From Candidatus Methanomethylophilus sp. 1R26 (GTDB lineage Archaea > Thermoplasmatota > Thermoplasmata > Methanomassiliicoccales > Methanomethylophilaceae), in contig NZ_LOPS01000047.1 in NCBI RefSeq assembly GCF_001481295.1, positions 21,462 to 85,461 on the forward strand: 64,000 bases of DNA, in the 5' to 3' direction. Positions within the stretch are counted from its first letter, which is position 1; the number at the start of each line of letters is the position of its first letter. Made by a program: the position numbers and the translations under genes. Below are positions 48,820-53,245 of this stretch, piece after piece. The notes beneath the pieces are model-generated. The model had not been told where the DNA came from, did no database searches, and was given only the letters and a program-made list of their open reading frames with translations.

Positions 48820-49275
48820 ATGAGCGAGTTCGATAAACTTTGCAAAGAATTCGAGAAGATCGACCCTGCTACATACATCGCACTGCTGGCAGCTAAATCC
48901 AGGGACGTGCTTGCCGGGATGGCCGCAGTCACCGGAGACCTCGTATCCGCGGTCGAGTCCTATGTGGACATCGTCATGATGGCGGTCGCCTCCGACGGCA
49001 AGCTCTCCAAAGAGGAGTTCGCCCTCATCGCGCCCGGTCTTGCCGCAGCGGTCGGCCAGCCCATCACCTACGAAGATGCGAAGAAGATCATGAACAAGTC
49101 CAAATTGGACTCCAGGGACAATAAGGCCGCCGTTGACGCTCTCGTGGACCTCGTCGGGTCGGTCTCCCCCGAGATCAAGGATGACATCGTCATCCTCACC
49201 ATGGTCATCTGCGCCGCAGACGGCAGGATCTCCGGCAAAGAGAAAGCCTGGATCAAACAGCTCATCCGCGAATGA
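48820..49275 (+). CDS. TerB-like (tellurite-resistance-fold) protein
   Basis: A 151-residue helical protein. Two related acidic segments, VASDGKLSKEEFALIAPGL (about 57-75) and CAADGRISGKEKAWIKQL (about 131-148), match the DGxxxxxE metal-binding repeats of the TerB family. No membrane segment. TerB-type domains occur in stress and phage-defence contexts as well as alone; nothing here shows which applies. The ATG at 48820 gives MSEFDKLCKEFEKID; a TTG at 48811 would add three residues. Convergent with the truncated asparagine-synthase gene; a hairpin (CTGCCCCGC...GCGGGGCAG, 49322-49345) separates them. Confidence 0.7.
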   Translation: MSEFDKLCKEFEKIDPATYIALLAAKSRDVLAGMAAVTGDLVSAVESYVDIVMMAVASDGKLSKEEFALIAPGLAAAVGQPITYEDAKKIMNKSKLDSRDNKAAVDALVDLVGSVSPEIKDDIVILTMVICAADGRISGKEKAWIKQLIRE

Positions 49276-49346
49276 TTTCATTTTCAGGGGCCGGAGGACA
49301 GACCGTCCTCTGTCCCCCCCCACTGCCCCGCAGAAGAGCGGGGCAG

Positions 49347-49805
49347 TTAAGGTGCGTTTTGGATTTTCACCGATCGCACATTCCCTCCGAAATACTCATC
49401 ACTGCCTTGGCTCGTTAGAATGACTGGCTCATGAGCCGCACGGCATACTGTGAAGAGCTGGAGTTCATACGAGATGGTGAAAGGGTCGCTGACCTTGGTA
49501 GCCAAGATCAGTTCCCTTATGTCGTTCTCGATAGTCTCTTCGCTTATTCTGCAGTGAACCCACGGGAGCCCCAGTTTCTCGGCCAGTTCCTTTCCAGCTG
49601 CGACGTCGAATGAGTCGTCCGTTCCGCAGGTGCAGCAGGTGACCGATCTGGCGTATTTCTTTGCGAGTGCGGCAACCAATCCCGAATCCATTCCGCCGGA
49701 GAAAGCGATTCCCACTTCCCTGCCTTGGCAGGCCTTGCGGACGGCTTCTTCGATTGCATTGCCGAGAGCTTCGTATTTCGCCAACTGTATCTTCCCACGT
49801 TTCAA
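49347..49805 (-). pseudogene. asparagine-synthase-like ATP-pyrophosphatase domain, truncated
   Basis: 152 residues with the PP-loop SGGMDSGLVAALAKKYA (about 35-51), the ELAEKLGLPWVHCRIS adenine-pocket region, and a second conserved block ILTSQGSDEYFGG near residue 130, after which the protein ends within 13 residues at a TAA. Full asparagine synthetases and their single-domain relatives continue 100 residues or more past this block, so the C-terminal part seems lost. It lies 120 nt from an integrase remnant on the same strand. It could be a functional minimal form, but truncation is likelier. Confidence 0.65.
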
Positions 49806-49925
49806 GGCTTAGACGAGCACTATCACGTCGGATTGTTGCTTTTTCTGAAAAGAAAAATCCCCAAGCTTCGAGTTCTGATTCTCTCCTCGCATCGGGTAAA
49901 TCGTTTCGGGAAGTATTTTTAGGTT

Positions 49926-50178
49926 TCACAGGTCGAGGGCGTCGTCGACGGCGGTTGTGGCACTCTTCATTTTCCTCGGATCAGCTTTGAGGTAATGGTT
50001 GACGGTCGTGTCGATGTGGGAGTGCCGCATCATCCTCCGCAGTGTATCGAGCTCCGTTCCCGCATCCGCGAGATTGGTGCAGTAGAATCTCCGAAGGGTG
50101 TGGCAGGTCGCATCGATGTCGGTCTTTCCTTTGAATTTCCTCATGGTCTCGTCCACGAATCTCGTGGCCGCTGCCGGA
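49926..50178 (-). pseudogene. tyrosine recombinase (integrase) C-terminal remnant
   Basis: The frame reads VIRPAAATRFVDETMRKFKG, then CHTLRRFYCTNLADAG, LRRMMRHSHIDTTVNHYLKADP. These are the H-x-x-R box, the second His and the catalytic Tyr of XerC/D-type recombinases. An in-frame TGA (about 50189) and lack of the N-terminal DNA-binding and first-Arg regions show that only the last 80 residues remain. A GTG at 50156 could start a 76-residue product, but it would not be active. It marks a past integration event beside the radical SAM pair. Confidence 0.75.
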
Positions 50179-50246
50179 CGAATTACCCACCAGCATCAGA
50201 TGTGGAAGAACCCAAATAAACATACCCCGATACGGAAACATCTGCC

Positions 50247-50939
50247 TTGACAGTGAGATGCCTCAAATCGGAGATCCAGTGCCTGAACGCCGTCATCGGG
50301 TGCACGAGAGGATGCGAATACTGTTACGCCAGAGCCGTCACCAAGAGATACCATGTGACGGACAACTTCTACGTCCCGCGGTTCTTCCCTAACAAACTTA
50401 GGATTCTGAACAGGAAGCGCCCCCACATCTATTTCATGACCGGTATGAGCGACCTCTCCGATTGGAAGGAGGATTGGATCAGGGTCACCATGGATGCCGT
50501 CAGGGATAATCCGCAGCATCAGTACATCTTCCTCACCAAATCGCCTGAGAAGCTGGATATGGATTGCGATATGGAGAACGTATGCTTCGGCGTGACGGTG
50601 ACGATGGATTCCGAGAAGGGAAGGATAAAGGAACTGCGCAGGAACGTACATGCCGAAAGCTATCACATAACATTCGAACCGATGTTCGATAAGATAACGG
50701 ACGTGGACTACGAAGGCGTGGATTGGATAGTCGTCGGTACGGAGACCGGGAACCGCAGAGGAAAGGCGGTATCGCAGCGCGACTGGATACAGGATATCGC
50801 CGATTCCGCTGCGGATGCGGGAGTGAAGGTGTTCATGAAGGAGGACGTCGTTAACATCATGGGCGAAGAGAACATGATACAGGATCTCCCAGACGCATAC
50901 GAGGAACTGCTGAAGGTACAGAAGGAGTGGAGGAAATGA
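50247..50939 (+). CDS. radical SAM protein, DUF5131 (phage Gp37/Gp68-like)
   Basis: About 230 residues. The cluster motif CTRGCEYCYAR is at residues 19-29, early in the protein, followed by TGMSDLSDWKEDWIR, IFLTKSPEKLD and WIVVGTETGNRRGKAV, the wording of the DUF5131 family, which is common in phages and mobile DNA and has no settled function. The start is TTG at 50247 or GTG at 50253; the A/T-rich box at 50214-50223 is about 27 nt upstream. The stop overlaps the next radical SAM gene (ATGA). GC content looks lower than in housekeeping neighbours, and the frame is intact. Confidence 0.8.
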   Translation: MTVRCLKSEIQCLNAVIGCTRGCEYCYARAVTKRYHVTDNFYVPRFFPNKLRILNRKRPHIYFMTGMSDLSDWKEDWIRVTMDAVRDNPQHQYIFLTKSPEKLDMDCDMENVCFGVTVTMDSEKGRIKELRRNVHAESYHITFEPMFDKITDVDYEGVDWIVVGTETGNRRGKAVSQRDWIQDIADSAADAGVKVFMKEDVVNIMGEENMIQDLPDAYEELLKVQKEWRK

Positions 50940-51832
50940 GCGACATCGTGATCAAAGAGATAGAGACGAAGAACATAATGACCAAATCATCCGGCCCCTT
51001 GGGCGGATATGCCGTCAATCCGTATACCGGGTGCACCCACGGATGCAGGTACTGCTACGCTTCCTTCATGAAGAGGTTCACCGGACACACCGAACCCTGG
51101 GGTAAGTTCCTCGATGTCAAGGATTGGCCTGCAATCGATCCATCCAAATACGACGGACAGACCGTGCTTCTCGGCACGGTCACCGATCCCTACGTGCCGC
51201 AGGAGAAGAAGTACCTCAGGACGAGAAAACTCCTGGAACAGCTGGTCGGGAGCAAGGCAGACATCACGATATGCACGAGATCCGATCTGGTCCTGAGGGA
51301 TCTCGATATCCTGAAGGAACTGGACAAGGTGACCGTATCATTCTCCATCAACACGCTGGACGAATCGTTCAGGAAGGATATGGATAAGGCCGTGAGCATA
51401 GAGAGGAGACTGGATGCCATGAAGGCTCTGTATGACGAAGGCTTACGTACCGTCGCCTTCATCTCGCCCGTATTCCCCGGGATAACGGACATCGAGGCGA
51501 TCATCAGAAGGACCAAGGACCAATGCGACCTGGTGTGGCTGGAGAACCTCAATCTCAGAGGAGGATTCAAATCGGATATCCTGTCGTACATCAAGGAGGA
51601 ACATCCCGATCTGGTGCCACTGTACAAGCAGATATACACCAAGAAGGACCGTTCCTATTTCATCAATCTCGAAAAGAAAGCTGAGGCGCTGGCACAGGAA
51701 CTCGGATGTCCGTTCACCAACAACTGGACCCCTTACGGCAGGGCGGAACCGGGACATCCCGTCATCGTGGACTATTTCTATCACGAGGAGGTCAGGAACA
51801 CCAACAATACGGGTATAAGGAACAGGAAATAA
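50936..51832 (+). CDS. radical SAM protein, spore-photoproduct-lyase-like family
   Basis: A 298-residue radical SAM protein with CTHGCRYCYASFMKRF at about residues 33-48, LGTVTDPYVPQEKKY, ICTRSDLVLRDLDILKEL and SFSINTLDE, the layout of the SPL-family radical SAM proteins. It lacks the C-terminal substrate Cys region of true spore photoproduct lyase as far as I can see. ATG at 50936 overlaps the DUF5131 stop and follows GGAGGAA. It ends in TAA. Two different radical SAM enzymes translated as a coupled pair suggests a joint modification pathway; substrate unknown. Confidence 0.8.
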   Translation: MSDIVIKEIETKNIMTKSSGPLGGYAVNPYTGCTHGCRYCYASFMKRFTGHTEPWGKFLDVKDWPAIDPSKYDGQTVLLGTVTDPYVPQEKKYLRTRKLLEQLVGSKADITICTRSDLVLRDLDILKELDKVTVSFSINTLDESFRKDMDKAVSIERRLDAMKALYDEGLRTVAFISPVFPGITDIEAIIRRTKDQCDLVWLENLNLRGGFKSDILSYIKEEHPDLVPLYKQIYTKKDRSYFINLEKKAEALAQELGCPFTNNWTPYGRAEPGHPVIVDYFYHEEVRNTNNTGIRNRK

Positions 51833-51882
51833 GCCGTTCGGTCCGTTCCGGAAGGGGGAGTCCTTATTCGACTATTAAAGAA

Positions 51883-51911
51883 ATAAAACTTTCATTTTTG
51901 TAAAGTTTTAT
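51883..51911. repeat. 29-bp palindrome, copy A (downstream of the ATPase gene)
   Basis: ATAAAACTTT (51883-51892) and AAAGTTTTAT (51902-51911) are perfect 10-bp inverted arms around a 9-nt spacer, CATTTTTGT. It lies 4 nt beyond the ATPase stop. Arms and spacer length are identical to copy B. Confidence 0.85.
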
Positions 51912-51915
51912 CGCA

Positions 51916-53142
51916 TTAGAATTTAAACCCGTCCCCAAGAAGAAAATCATTGACCAGGTGCAGCATTATGATTCCGGATCTGTCGATTTGTATAGGATCC
52001 ATCGATATGATGTACTTCGGATAGTTGTCTCTGATTTTAAGGAATGGTGCTTCCTCTCTTTTCTCGGTCTTCTGAGAATCCATGAGATACGTTACCTGTA
52101 CGTACGCCGTATGTCTCCCGTCGGATACGACGAAATCTGCTTCGCAATCCCTTAGTTTCCCGACCTGCACATCATATCCCCTGGAATTTAGTTCGTTGAA
52201 TACGATATTCTCCAAAAGATGTCCCATCTGGATGTCGTGTCTGCGTTTCGGATAGGATGTGTAAAGGGAAATGTCTGCAACATAAGTCTTGTAATGGGTT
52301 TTCAAGGCCTTCTTCCCGGAGATATCGAACCGCATACACTTATCGACCAGTTTGCTCGCGAAAATGACTTCGAGATACCTATTCACTGTATTGGGATTGG
52401 TCCTGATATTCTCTGAACGGAGATATTTCGAGATTGATGTCGAAGAGATTTCGGCACCCGGTGTGGAAAGCAGATAATCCAAAAGCTTGCTCAGTAAGGT
52501 TTTGTTTCTTATCTTCTTGCTTTTTAATATATCCTTGTTGATGGTCTCTTCGATGACCGACCGTATGTAGAGAGTCCTGTTCTCTTGATCGGTATATGTT
52601 ATACCCTTGGGATAACCCCCCGTGAATAGATAATCCTGAAATAGGTCGGTATTGGAGTAAGATATGCCATTCAGCGTATAGAATTCCTCTATTTCAGTCA
52701 ATGAGAATGTGAATATTCTGAATTCTATGTAGCGACCGGTCAGTTTTGTTACCAATTCCCCACTTAAGAGATACGAATTCGAACCTGTGATGAAAACCGA
52801 TACACCATCATTACGGTATGCATTGATTAGGGGCTCAAATCCCTTCACGTTCTGAATCTCATCTACAAACAGGAATCTGTCTCCTTTGCAATTCCTGAAC
52901 CCGTCGTCTATCAGCTTTTCCAAAGAATCGGGAGTGCGGATCTTCAGGTTATTTTTACTATCCAGATCGATATACACGATTGTTTTCTCGACTTTTGTAT
53001 CAGTGCCGAGATCGTCCATTATCTGTTTCATAATTGTAGATTTTCCGCATCTGCGAGCCCCTGTCAGGACCTTGATTATGTCCTTATCATTGTAAAATGG
53101 ACGGATTTTAGAAAGGTATTTTTCCCTCCTAAGTTCTTTCAT
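51916..53142 (-). CDS. AAA+ ATPase with DUF4143 C-terminal domain
   Basis: A 408-residue protein. The ATPase domain has Walker A GARRCGKST at about 28-36 and Walker B RFLFVDEIQN near 90-100, followed by the sensor-type SNSYLLSG. A winged-helix-like region lies near 215-265. The C-terminal DUF4143 part contains CEADFVVSDGRHTAYVQV, which resembles a PD-(D/E)xK core but has Gln where the last acid is usual, so nuclease activity is doubtful. The gene is strikingly A/T-rich, ends in TAA, and is bracketed by two identical-arm palindromes; copy B covers its TATA box. All this points to a transferred cassette, possibly self-regulated. Function of the family is unsettled. Confidence 0.85.
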   Translation of the reverse strand: MKELRREKYLSKIRPFYNDKDIIKVLTGARRCGKSTIMKQIMDDLGTDTKVEKTIVYIDLDSKNNLKIRTPDSLEKLIDDGFRNCKGDRFLFVDEIQNVKGFEPLINAYRNDGVSVFITGSNSYLLSGELVTKLTGRYIEFRIFTFSLTEIEEFYTLNGISYSNTDLFQDYLFTGGYPKGITYTDQENRTLYIRSVIEETINKDILKSKKIRNKTLLSKLLDYLLSTPGAEISSTSISKYLRSENIRTNPNTVNRYLEVIFASKLVDKCMRFDISGKKALKTHYKTYVADISLYTSYPKRRHDIQMGHLLENIVFNELNSRGYDVQVGKLRDCEADFVVSDGRHTAYVQVTYLMDSQKTEKREEAPFLKIRDNYPKYIISMDPIQIDRSGIIMLHLVNDFLLGDGFKF

Positions 53143-53163
53143 AGATTTGATTATATAAAGTAA

Positions 53164-53174
53164 GGATATAAAAC
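53164..53174 (-). promoter_or_regulatory. TATA box of the ATPase gene, inside palindrome B
   Basis: Minus-strand GTTTTATATCC is centred about 27 nt before the ATG at 53142 and overlaps the left arm of palindrome B (53168-53177), so a protein bound there would block TBP. Confidence 0.55.
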
Positions 53175-53196
53175 TTTCATAATCGAAAAGTTTTAT
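53168..53196. repeat. 29-bp palindrome, copy B (promoter of the ATPase gene)
   Basis: ATAAAACTTT (53168-53177) and AAAGTTTTAT (53187-53196) flank a 9-nt spacer, CATAATCGA. Arms are identical to copy A at 51883-51911. Confidence 0.85.
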
Positions 53197-53245
53197 TTTG
53201 TTAATTTAAACATTGAATCATAAGAAGTTGCACATCCGCCGCTGT

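Follow-up and report, generated by a model that had tools for sequence, protein, structure and literature searches.

We have analyzed a 64,000-nucleotide stretch of the archaeon Candidatus Methanomethylophilus sp. 1R26 (contig NZ_LOPS01000047.1, positions 21,462 to 85,461 of the forward strand; hereafter the window), in which a single gene for an AAA_14-DUF4143 ATPase lies between two copies of the same palindrome, an arrangement that we call the cassette. Comparison of this locus with its relatives suggested that the palindrome, 45 bp long in its full form, is probably the operator by which the ATPase controls its own gene, with the second copy marking the far end of a compact unit that is gained or lost as a piece. 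Genomes, contigs and loci are numbered below with the prefixes G, C and L.

Two copies of a palindrome bracket the ATPase gene

The sequence ATAAAACTTT-N9-AAAGTTTTAT was found at positions 51883-51911 and 53168-53196 of the window with zero arm mismatches, on either side of the gene (51916-53142, minus strand). This agreed with the original prediction of two 29-bp palindromes with identical arms. The predicted length held for the core and not for the full extent, since a 45-bp palindrome (18-nt arms, 9-nt spacer) is seen across relatives, with the form TTAACG..ATAAAACTTT-N9-AAAGTTTTAT..CGTTAA and the 29-bp sequence as its core. The outer 8 nt of each arm are eroded in the window copies and nearly perfect in several relatives.

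The upstream 45-bp palindrome, the proposed operator (53160-53204, no strand assigned), sits on the promoter. Its right arm contains a TATA-like box, TTTTATA (53167-53173, minus strand, -31 to -25 from the ATG), located at the end of the palindrome that faces the gene and starting 31 nt ahead of the ATG. The downstream 45-bp palindrome (51875-51919, no strand assigned), the candidate second site or unit end, overlaps the stop codon (51916-51918), and its core lies 4 nt from that codon. Both placements had been correctly anticipated, as had the lack of a further copy in the window, where no third site was found with up to three mismatches (0.00 expected from 100 shuffles). With the same tolerance, the window's own genome, G000 (1.72 Mb, 82.85% complete), also gave no third site, its two sites belonging to one locus.

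The site is confined to one ATPase clade within the order

We have searched 147 genomes of the order for the arm-N9-arm pattern with up to two mismatches, obtaining 14 sites in 9 genomes. All 14 adjoin a gene of the same ATPase clade or a piece of one: 12 are beside a full gene, one is beside a gene interrupted where its contig ends (G074) and one is beside a truncated copy (G091:C33). Among the eight closest members of the clade (L035-L042, the window's included), the upstream site is present in all eight and the downstream site in seven. The pattern was therefore not scattered, every copy flanking a DUF4143-clade gene or piece, and the conservation of both flanks at related loci, on which the original prediction had also been made to depend, was observed in these seven members.

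Two other explanations of the pattern were rejected. A genome-wide regulon was discarded as the pattern is restricted to the cassette, both in the window's own genome and in the genomes of the order. A dispersed repeat or REP-like element was discarded for the spellings searched, which gave no scattered copies.

The same architecture occurs in bacteria

The same layout was found in bacteria, with differently spelled palindromes. The genome collection contained 80 DUF4143 loci, 79 of them usable (L207 was omitted, being too close to a contig end). A TTAA-bounded palindrome lies upstream of 28 of these 79 loci, as compared with 8 of 347 neighboring genes, and 25 of the 28 measure exactly 45 bp when lengths of 41-53 bp are allowed. 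In a looser set that includes archaeal loci (43-49 bp allowed), the length is exactly 45 bp in 29 of 33 loci. A general palindrome score beat shuffles, at 0-1 of 100, for 35/79 DUF4143 loci versus 52/347 neighbor genes.

The interior of the palindrome differs between loci, with AGTTAAGGGGG..CCCCCTTAACT common to several bacterial loci (by eye) and TTCCGGGGGG..CCCCCCGGAA to several Bifidobacterium loci. Arm similarity correlates with protein identity (r = 0.37, reached by 0 of 2,000 permutations, with no correction for host relatedness). Genes of distant subfamilies are often preceded by other palindromes of shorter length, which in the order are often repeated ~44 nt apart (by eye). Related genes were also found on 233 plasmid records; the four plasmid loci examined (Acinetobacter, Bacteroides, Lactobacillus and Moraxella) have weaker upstream palindromes, and none of the four shows the 45-bp TTAA form or a clear downstream copy.

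The window's own genome contains 20 DUF4143 matches, some of them to gene pieces. Other upstream repeats were seen at some of these paralogs, and two distant ones (L010 and L011) have about three direct repeats upstream in place of palindromes (by eye).

The upstream palindrome is phased with the core promoter

All eight archaeal clade members have the TATA-like box (TTTTATA or a near form) in the right arm of the palindrome, its first base lying 31 to 27 nt upstream of the ATG. At 22 of the 28 bacterial loci, the best -10 hexamer starts either 13-15 or 22-25 nt past the palindrome, two distances that differ by about one helical turn. The two null distributions had means of 4.4 and 5.0, with 0 of 1,000 reaching 22 in each. 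At 14/28 bacterial loci, the tetranucleotide CTTG, the beginning of a -35-like TTGA box, comes directly after the palindrome or one base beyond it.

A dyad site that overlaps or abuts the core promoter of its own gene was thus found, and this placement supports the operator reading since it is what an operator needs. Repression by the ATPase would be the most probable sign of the control, given an arm that lies over the TATA-like box or extends to the -35 region.

Downstream copies match their own upstream partners

A matched palindrome is present 3' of the stop codon in 13 of 77 genome loci, one of which (L224) is weak (26/42 bases). Alignment of the flanks of 76 loci recovered 11 of these 13, plus five unrelated flank repeats located elsewhere. 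Among the TTAA-form loci, 9/28 carry the downstream copy.

We have compared the two sites in 17 cassettes selected for having both copies. Upstream and downstream sites were 83% alike within cassettes and 50% alike between them, and the own partner was the best match in 15 of the 17; for L040 the automatic pick took a different palindrome in this comparison, the true pair being known separately. About half of the pairs (8/17, by eye) are also alike in the unpaired spacer. Hence, the two members of such a pair would share descent from one sequence or be kept alike, and would not be independent hairpins. The two cassettes of genome G147 (L225/L282 and L284) have different matched pairs. A tandem second ATPase gene was rejected as the reason for the downstream copy, with no second DUF4143 open reading frame next in ten loci (by eye).

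Gain and loss of the cassette

The 3' edge of the unit was sharp when the window was compared with the 95%-identical copy of G044: similarity reaches the outer edge of the 3' palindrome and none is found beyond. On the 5' side, the likeness extends 37 nt past the palindrome, to an asparagine-synthase-like gene piece. This 37-nt stretch (53205-53241, no strand assigned) is common to G044 and G091:C33, and its distal end resembles that gene piece.

In Bifidobacterium, eight cassettes from eight species occupy seven contexts, the flanks being common only to G195 and G257 (28 pairs compared). For five of these species, the alignment to B. subtile starts at query position 900/901, which lies ~5 nt beyond the TTCC edge of the upstream palindrome, and ends near the stop codon; because of their divergence, functional conservation alone could set these edges. 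At the site orthologous to that of B. subtile, both flanks are present in G221, together with a single perfect solo palindrome and no gene. The Bifidobacterium spelling was found at 12 sites in 11 of 112 genomes: eight are beside an intact gene (7 genomes), three are solo (G164, G221 and G239, with no such ATPase gene within 1.5 kb) and one adjoins a C-terminal gene remnant of 28 residues (G175). No multiplied near-identical copies were seen for the spelling searched, each of the 112 genomes having at most one such locus. The solo palindrome of G164 (L356, contig G164:C12) is flanked by two other genes that have ATPase-like Walker motifs, which suggests a hot spot for ATPase-like genes.

The original prediction had named empty sites in sister strains as a check on the cassette. 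The same-species genome G035 lacks the whole of an island of ~3.9 kb that holds the cassette (window 49310-53241, no strand assigned, left edge approximate), having 92 bp between the partners of window positions 49275 and 53239 (L093 7901 and 7994). Genome G083 is without the G091 cassette at the syntenic site; 31 unmatched bp are found there, which detracts from a clean empty site, and no duplication was recognized. Five relatives of G081 (G072, G076, G077, G082 and G087) have 66-138 bp in place of the cassette, in a comparison where ~140-160 bp next to each palindrome are unconserved and the edges are unreadable. For the Dialister-type G147, the flanks are not syntenic in five relatives and no empty site was found there. 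This 2.1-Mb genome, the source of L225, has eighteen matches to the window ATPase and a separate ~80-bp repeat in dozens of places, one of them just upstream of a cassette.

The ATPase gene and protein

The gene encodes 408 amino acids and was assigned to the AAA_14-DUF4143 family through Pfam, the PADLOC model PDC-S01, an AlphaFold2 model and fold matches. The reading frame is intact, in line with the predicted freedom from frameshifts, and its GC content of 41.8%, versus 59.9% for the window, bore out the claim that it is more A/T-rich than its surroundings. Pfam returned AAA_14 (3.3e-30, 105.2 bits, cut-off 27) followed by DUF4143 (6e-14, 52.5 bits, cut-off 28.1), the domain order of the family. 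The best PADLOC PDC-S01 model, PDLC04787, covered residues 3-403 (E 4.7e-125, 415.7 bits).

The protein consists of an AAA+ STAND-like domain and a C-terminal PD-(D/E)XK-fold domain, with a probable winged-helix region. In fold searches with the AlphaFold2 model (pLDDT 91.3), the AAA+ domain resembled archaeal ATPases and DNA-bound Orc1/Cdc6, and fold matches supported the PD-(D/E)XK-like fold of the C-terminal domain; no row covered the entire chain well, a negative that does not count as evidence of absence. Across 60 sequences E311, E334 and Q349 are invariant and D336 is kept in at least 90%. The canonical PD-(D/E)XK lysine is missing, being T in the window protein (QVT, read by eye) and variable across a 28-row alignment, and some other residue could stand in for it. 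No known transposase domain was found in the unit, for which Pfam gave just AAA_14, DUF4143 and a sub-threshold ATPase_2, and PHROGs gave no match at E ≤ 0.01.

Surroundings of the window cassette

Inside the ~3.9-kb island, two radical SAM genes (window 50247-51832) match the NCBIfam "radical SAM mobile pair" proteins A and B, with TIGR04471 below and TIGR04470 above the cut-off. In the window, G091 and G044, the break points of asparagine-synthase-like gene fragments (window 49347-50156, L082 and L079) fall on or adjacent to the same DEYFGG codons. A tyrosine-integrase fragment is close to these fragments in the window and in G091. The break point resembles an attachment site used repeatedly by a larger integrative element that carries the ATPase cassette. 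G091:C33, although from another genus, has at L082 6865-7143 a 5' part of the window cassette, 279 bp in length, with 98.9% identity and truncated after ~60 codons.

Operator and unit end weighed against the alternatives

Under the reading that we favor, the ATPase would bind the palindrome as a symmetric oligomer and hold its own promoter low, a repression that the ATP state or an invader signal may perhaps alter. The second copy would permit looping or a tighter shut-off, and recombination between the two copies would delete the gene and leave one site. Solo sites would be explained in this way, because such recombination makes the unit easy to lose. The palindromes had been proposed as either operators or ends of a transferable unit. 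For the upstream copy, the fixed 45-bp geometry, the promoter position in two domains and the occurrence at its own gene only spoke for an operator. The unit itself was supported by the sharp G044 edge, the seven Bifidobacterium contexts and the solo site of G221; the larger island and a downstream site that is mostly absent moderated this support.

Several observations weigh against our reading as a whole. An operator role by itself needs no copy after the stop codon, and most relatives with an upstream site have no downstream one. The window cassette sits within an island that is missing as a whole from this place in a same-species genome. A different regulator could bind the palindrome, though the spellings differ between paralogs of one genome. 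The TTAA form was defined, and the -10 and promoter windows were picked, after inspection of the data; 51/79 genome loci are without this form, and neighbor genes also beat the shuffles fairly often. At p ≤ 0.01, just 16 of 28 upstream regions beat shuffles in the order set (L048 and L058, listed together as wrong frame and partial, were omitted from this test and from alignment A1), as did 14 of 43 in a viral-contig set that was dereplicated by similarity from 62 loci after removal of L161. The correlation between arms and proteins is uncorrected for host relatedness. Finally, a reversed control pattern matched 2 of the 147 genomes of the order, once each, so that chance can produce single sites with two mismatches.

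We consider it unlikely that the palindromes bound a single-gene mobile element, one that the ATPase-nuclease would itself insert and excise as an unusual recombinase or transposase. No target-site duplication was recognized, site copies are not multiplied within a genome, most members are without the 3' copy and the canonical nuclease lysine is absent. Moreover, a transposon end needs no phased promoter position, and the window copy is inside a larger island. It is also rather improbable that the PDC-S01 ATPases are self-contained selfish genes, a class of single-gene mobile element in which the AAA+ ATPase with its PD-(D/E)XK-like domain would recognize its private 45-bp palindrome, silence itself and use the paired copies (or a solo copy in a recipient) to excise from and re-enter genomes with no classical transposase.

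We similarly doubt that both sites are regulatory only, with the unit moved by islands, integrases and plasmids and the solo sites being leftovers of ordinary gene deletion. The integrase fragment and radical SAM mobile pair in the window island, the related genes on 233 plasmid records and the G175 palindrome kept beside its gene remnant would be compatible with this, whereas recombination between copies is suggested by the abrupt 3' edge seen against G044 and by the exact solo site of G221. That the palindromes are terminators or RNA hairpins insulating the gene appears very improbable. Their stems are long and one copy comes just after the stop codon; however, the upstream copy precedes the transcription start implied by the promoter, and would thus be outside the transcript, and the agreement of the unpaired spacers in about half of the pairs also speaks against hairpins.

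Relation to known systems and significance

The window protein is a member of the PDC-S01/AAA_14-DUF4143 (COG1373) ATPases, with the same fusion of an ATPase to a PD-(D/E)XK-like domain (PMC12988326). PDC-S01, a phage-defense candidate of PADLOC, ranks as the fourth most common defense across all prokaryotes, with 9,986 archaeal and 29,494 bacterial systems detected, and experimental validation is pending for most such defense candidates (PMC12988326). No cis-acting site was found described for PDC-S01 in that report, and "palindrom" occurs nowhere in its main text (PMC12988326). A table of genes shared between gut genera includes 19 COG1373 genes (PMC10782964). The archaeal AAA+ ATPases of solved structure SSO1545 (2fna) and PAB2304 (2qen) differ in that the match leaves out the DUF4143 domain at the C-terminus of the window protein.

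In REPtrons, RAYT genes coding for a Y1 HUH transposase lie between REP palindromes, which are widely scattered in the genome. The likeness is one gene bracketed by two similar palindromes; the window cassette, in contrast, has just the bracketing sites, and no transposase domain was found in it. BrxR and CapW are WYL-domain regulators that bind inverted repeats. They share with the window cassette a defense-associated gene under a palindromic operator, predicted in our case, but there a dedicated regulator binds, whereas the window unit is a lone ATPase gene with no separate regulator. WYL-domain regulators act at phage-defense loci (PMC9122601).

The ATPase family was already known. The cis site, its 45-bp geometry across domains and its promoter phasing are apparently new, no description of them having been found in the subset of the open-access literature searched. 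A private, conserved promoter site would offer a biochemical handle on the DNA that is bound, on what relieves repression and on a possible action of the nuclease-like domain at the site. How the protein reads DNA could be worked out from its many paralogs, whose differing spellings would form a natural set for comparison. Should the paired sites also serve recombination, the cassette would represent a new type of single-gene mobile unit.
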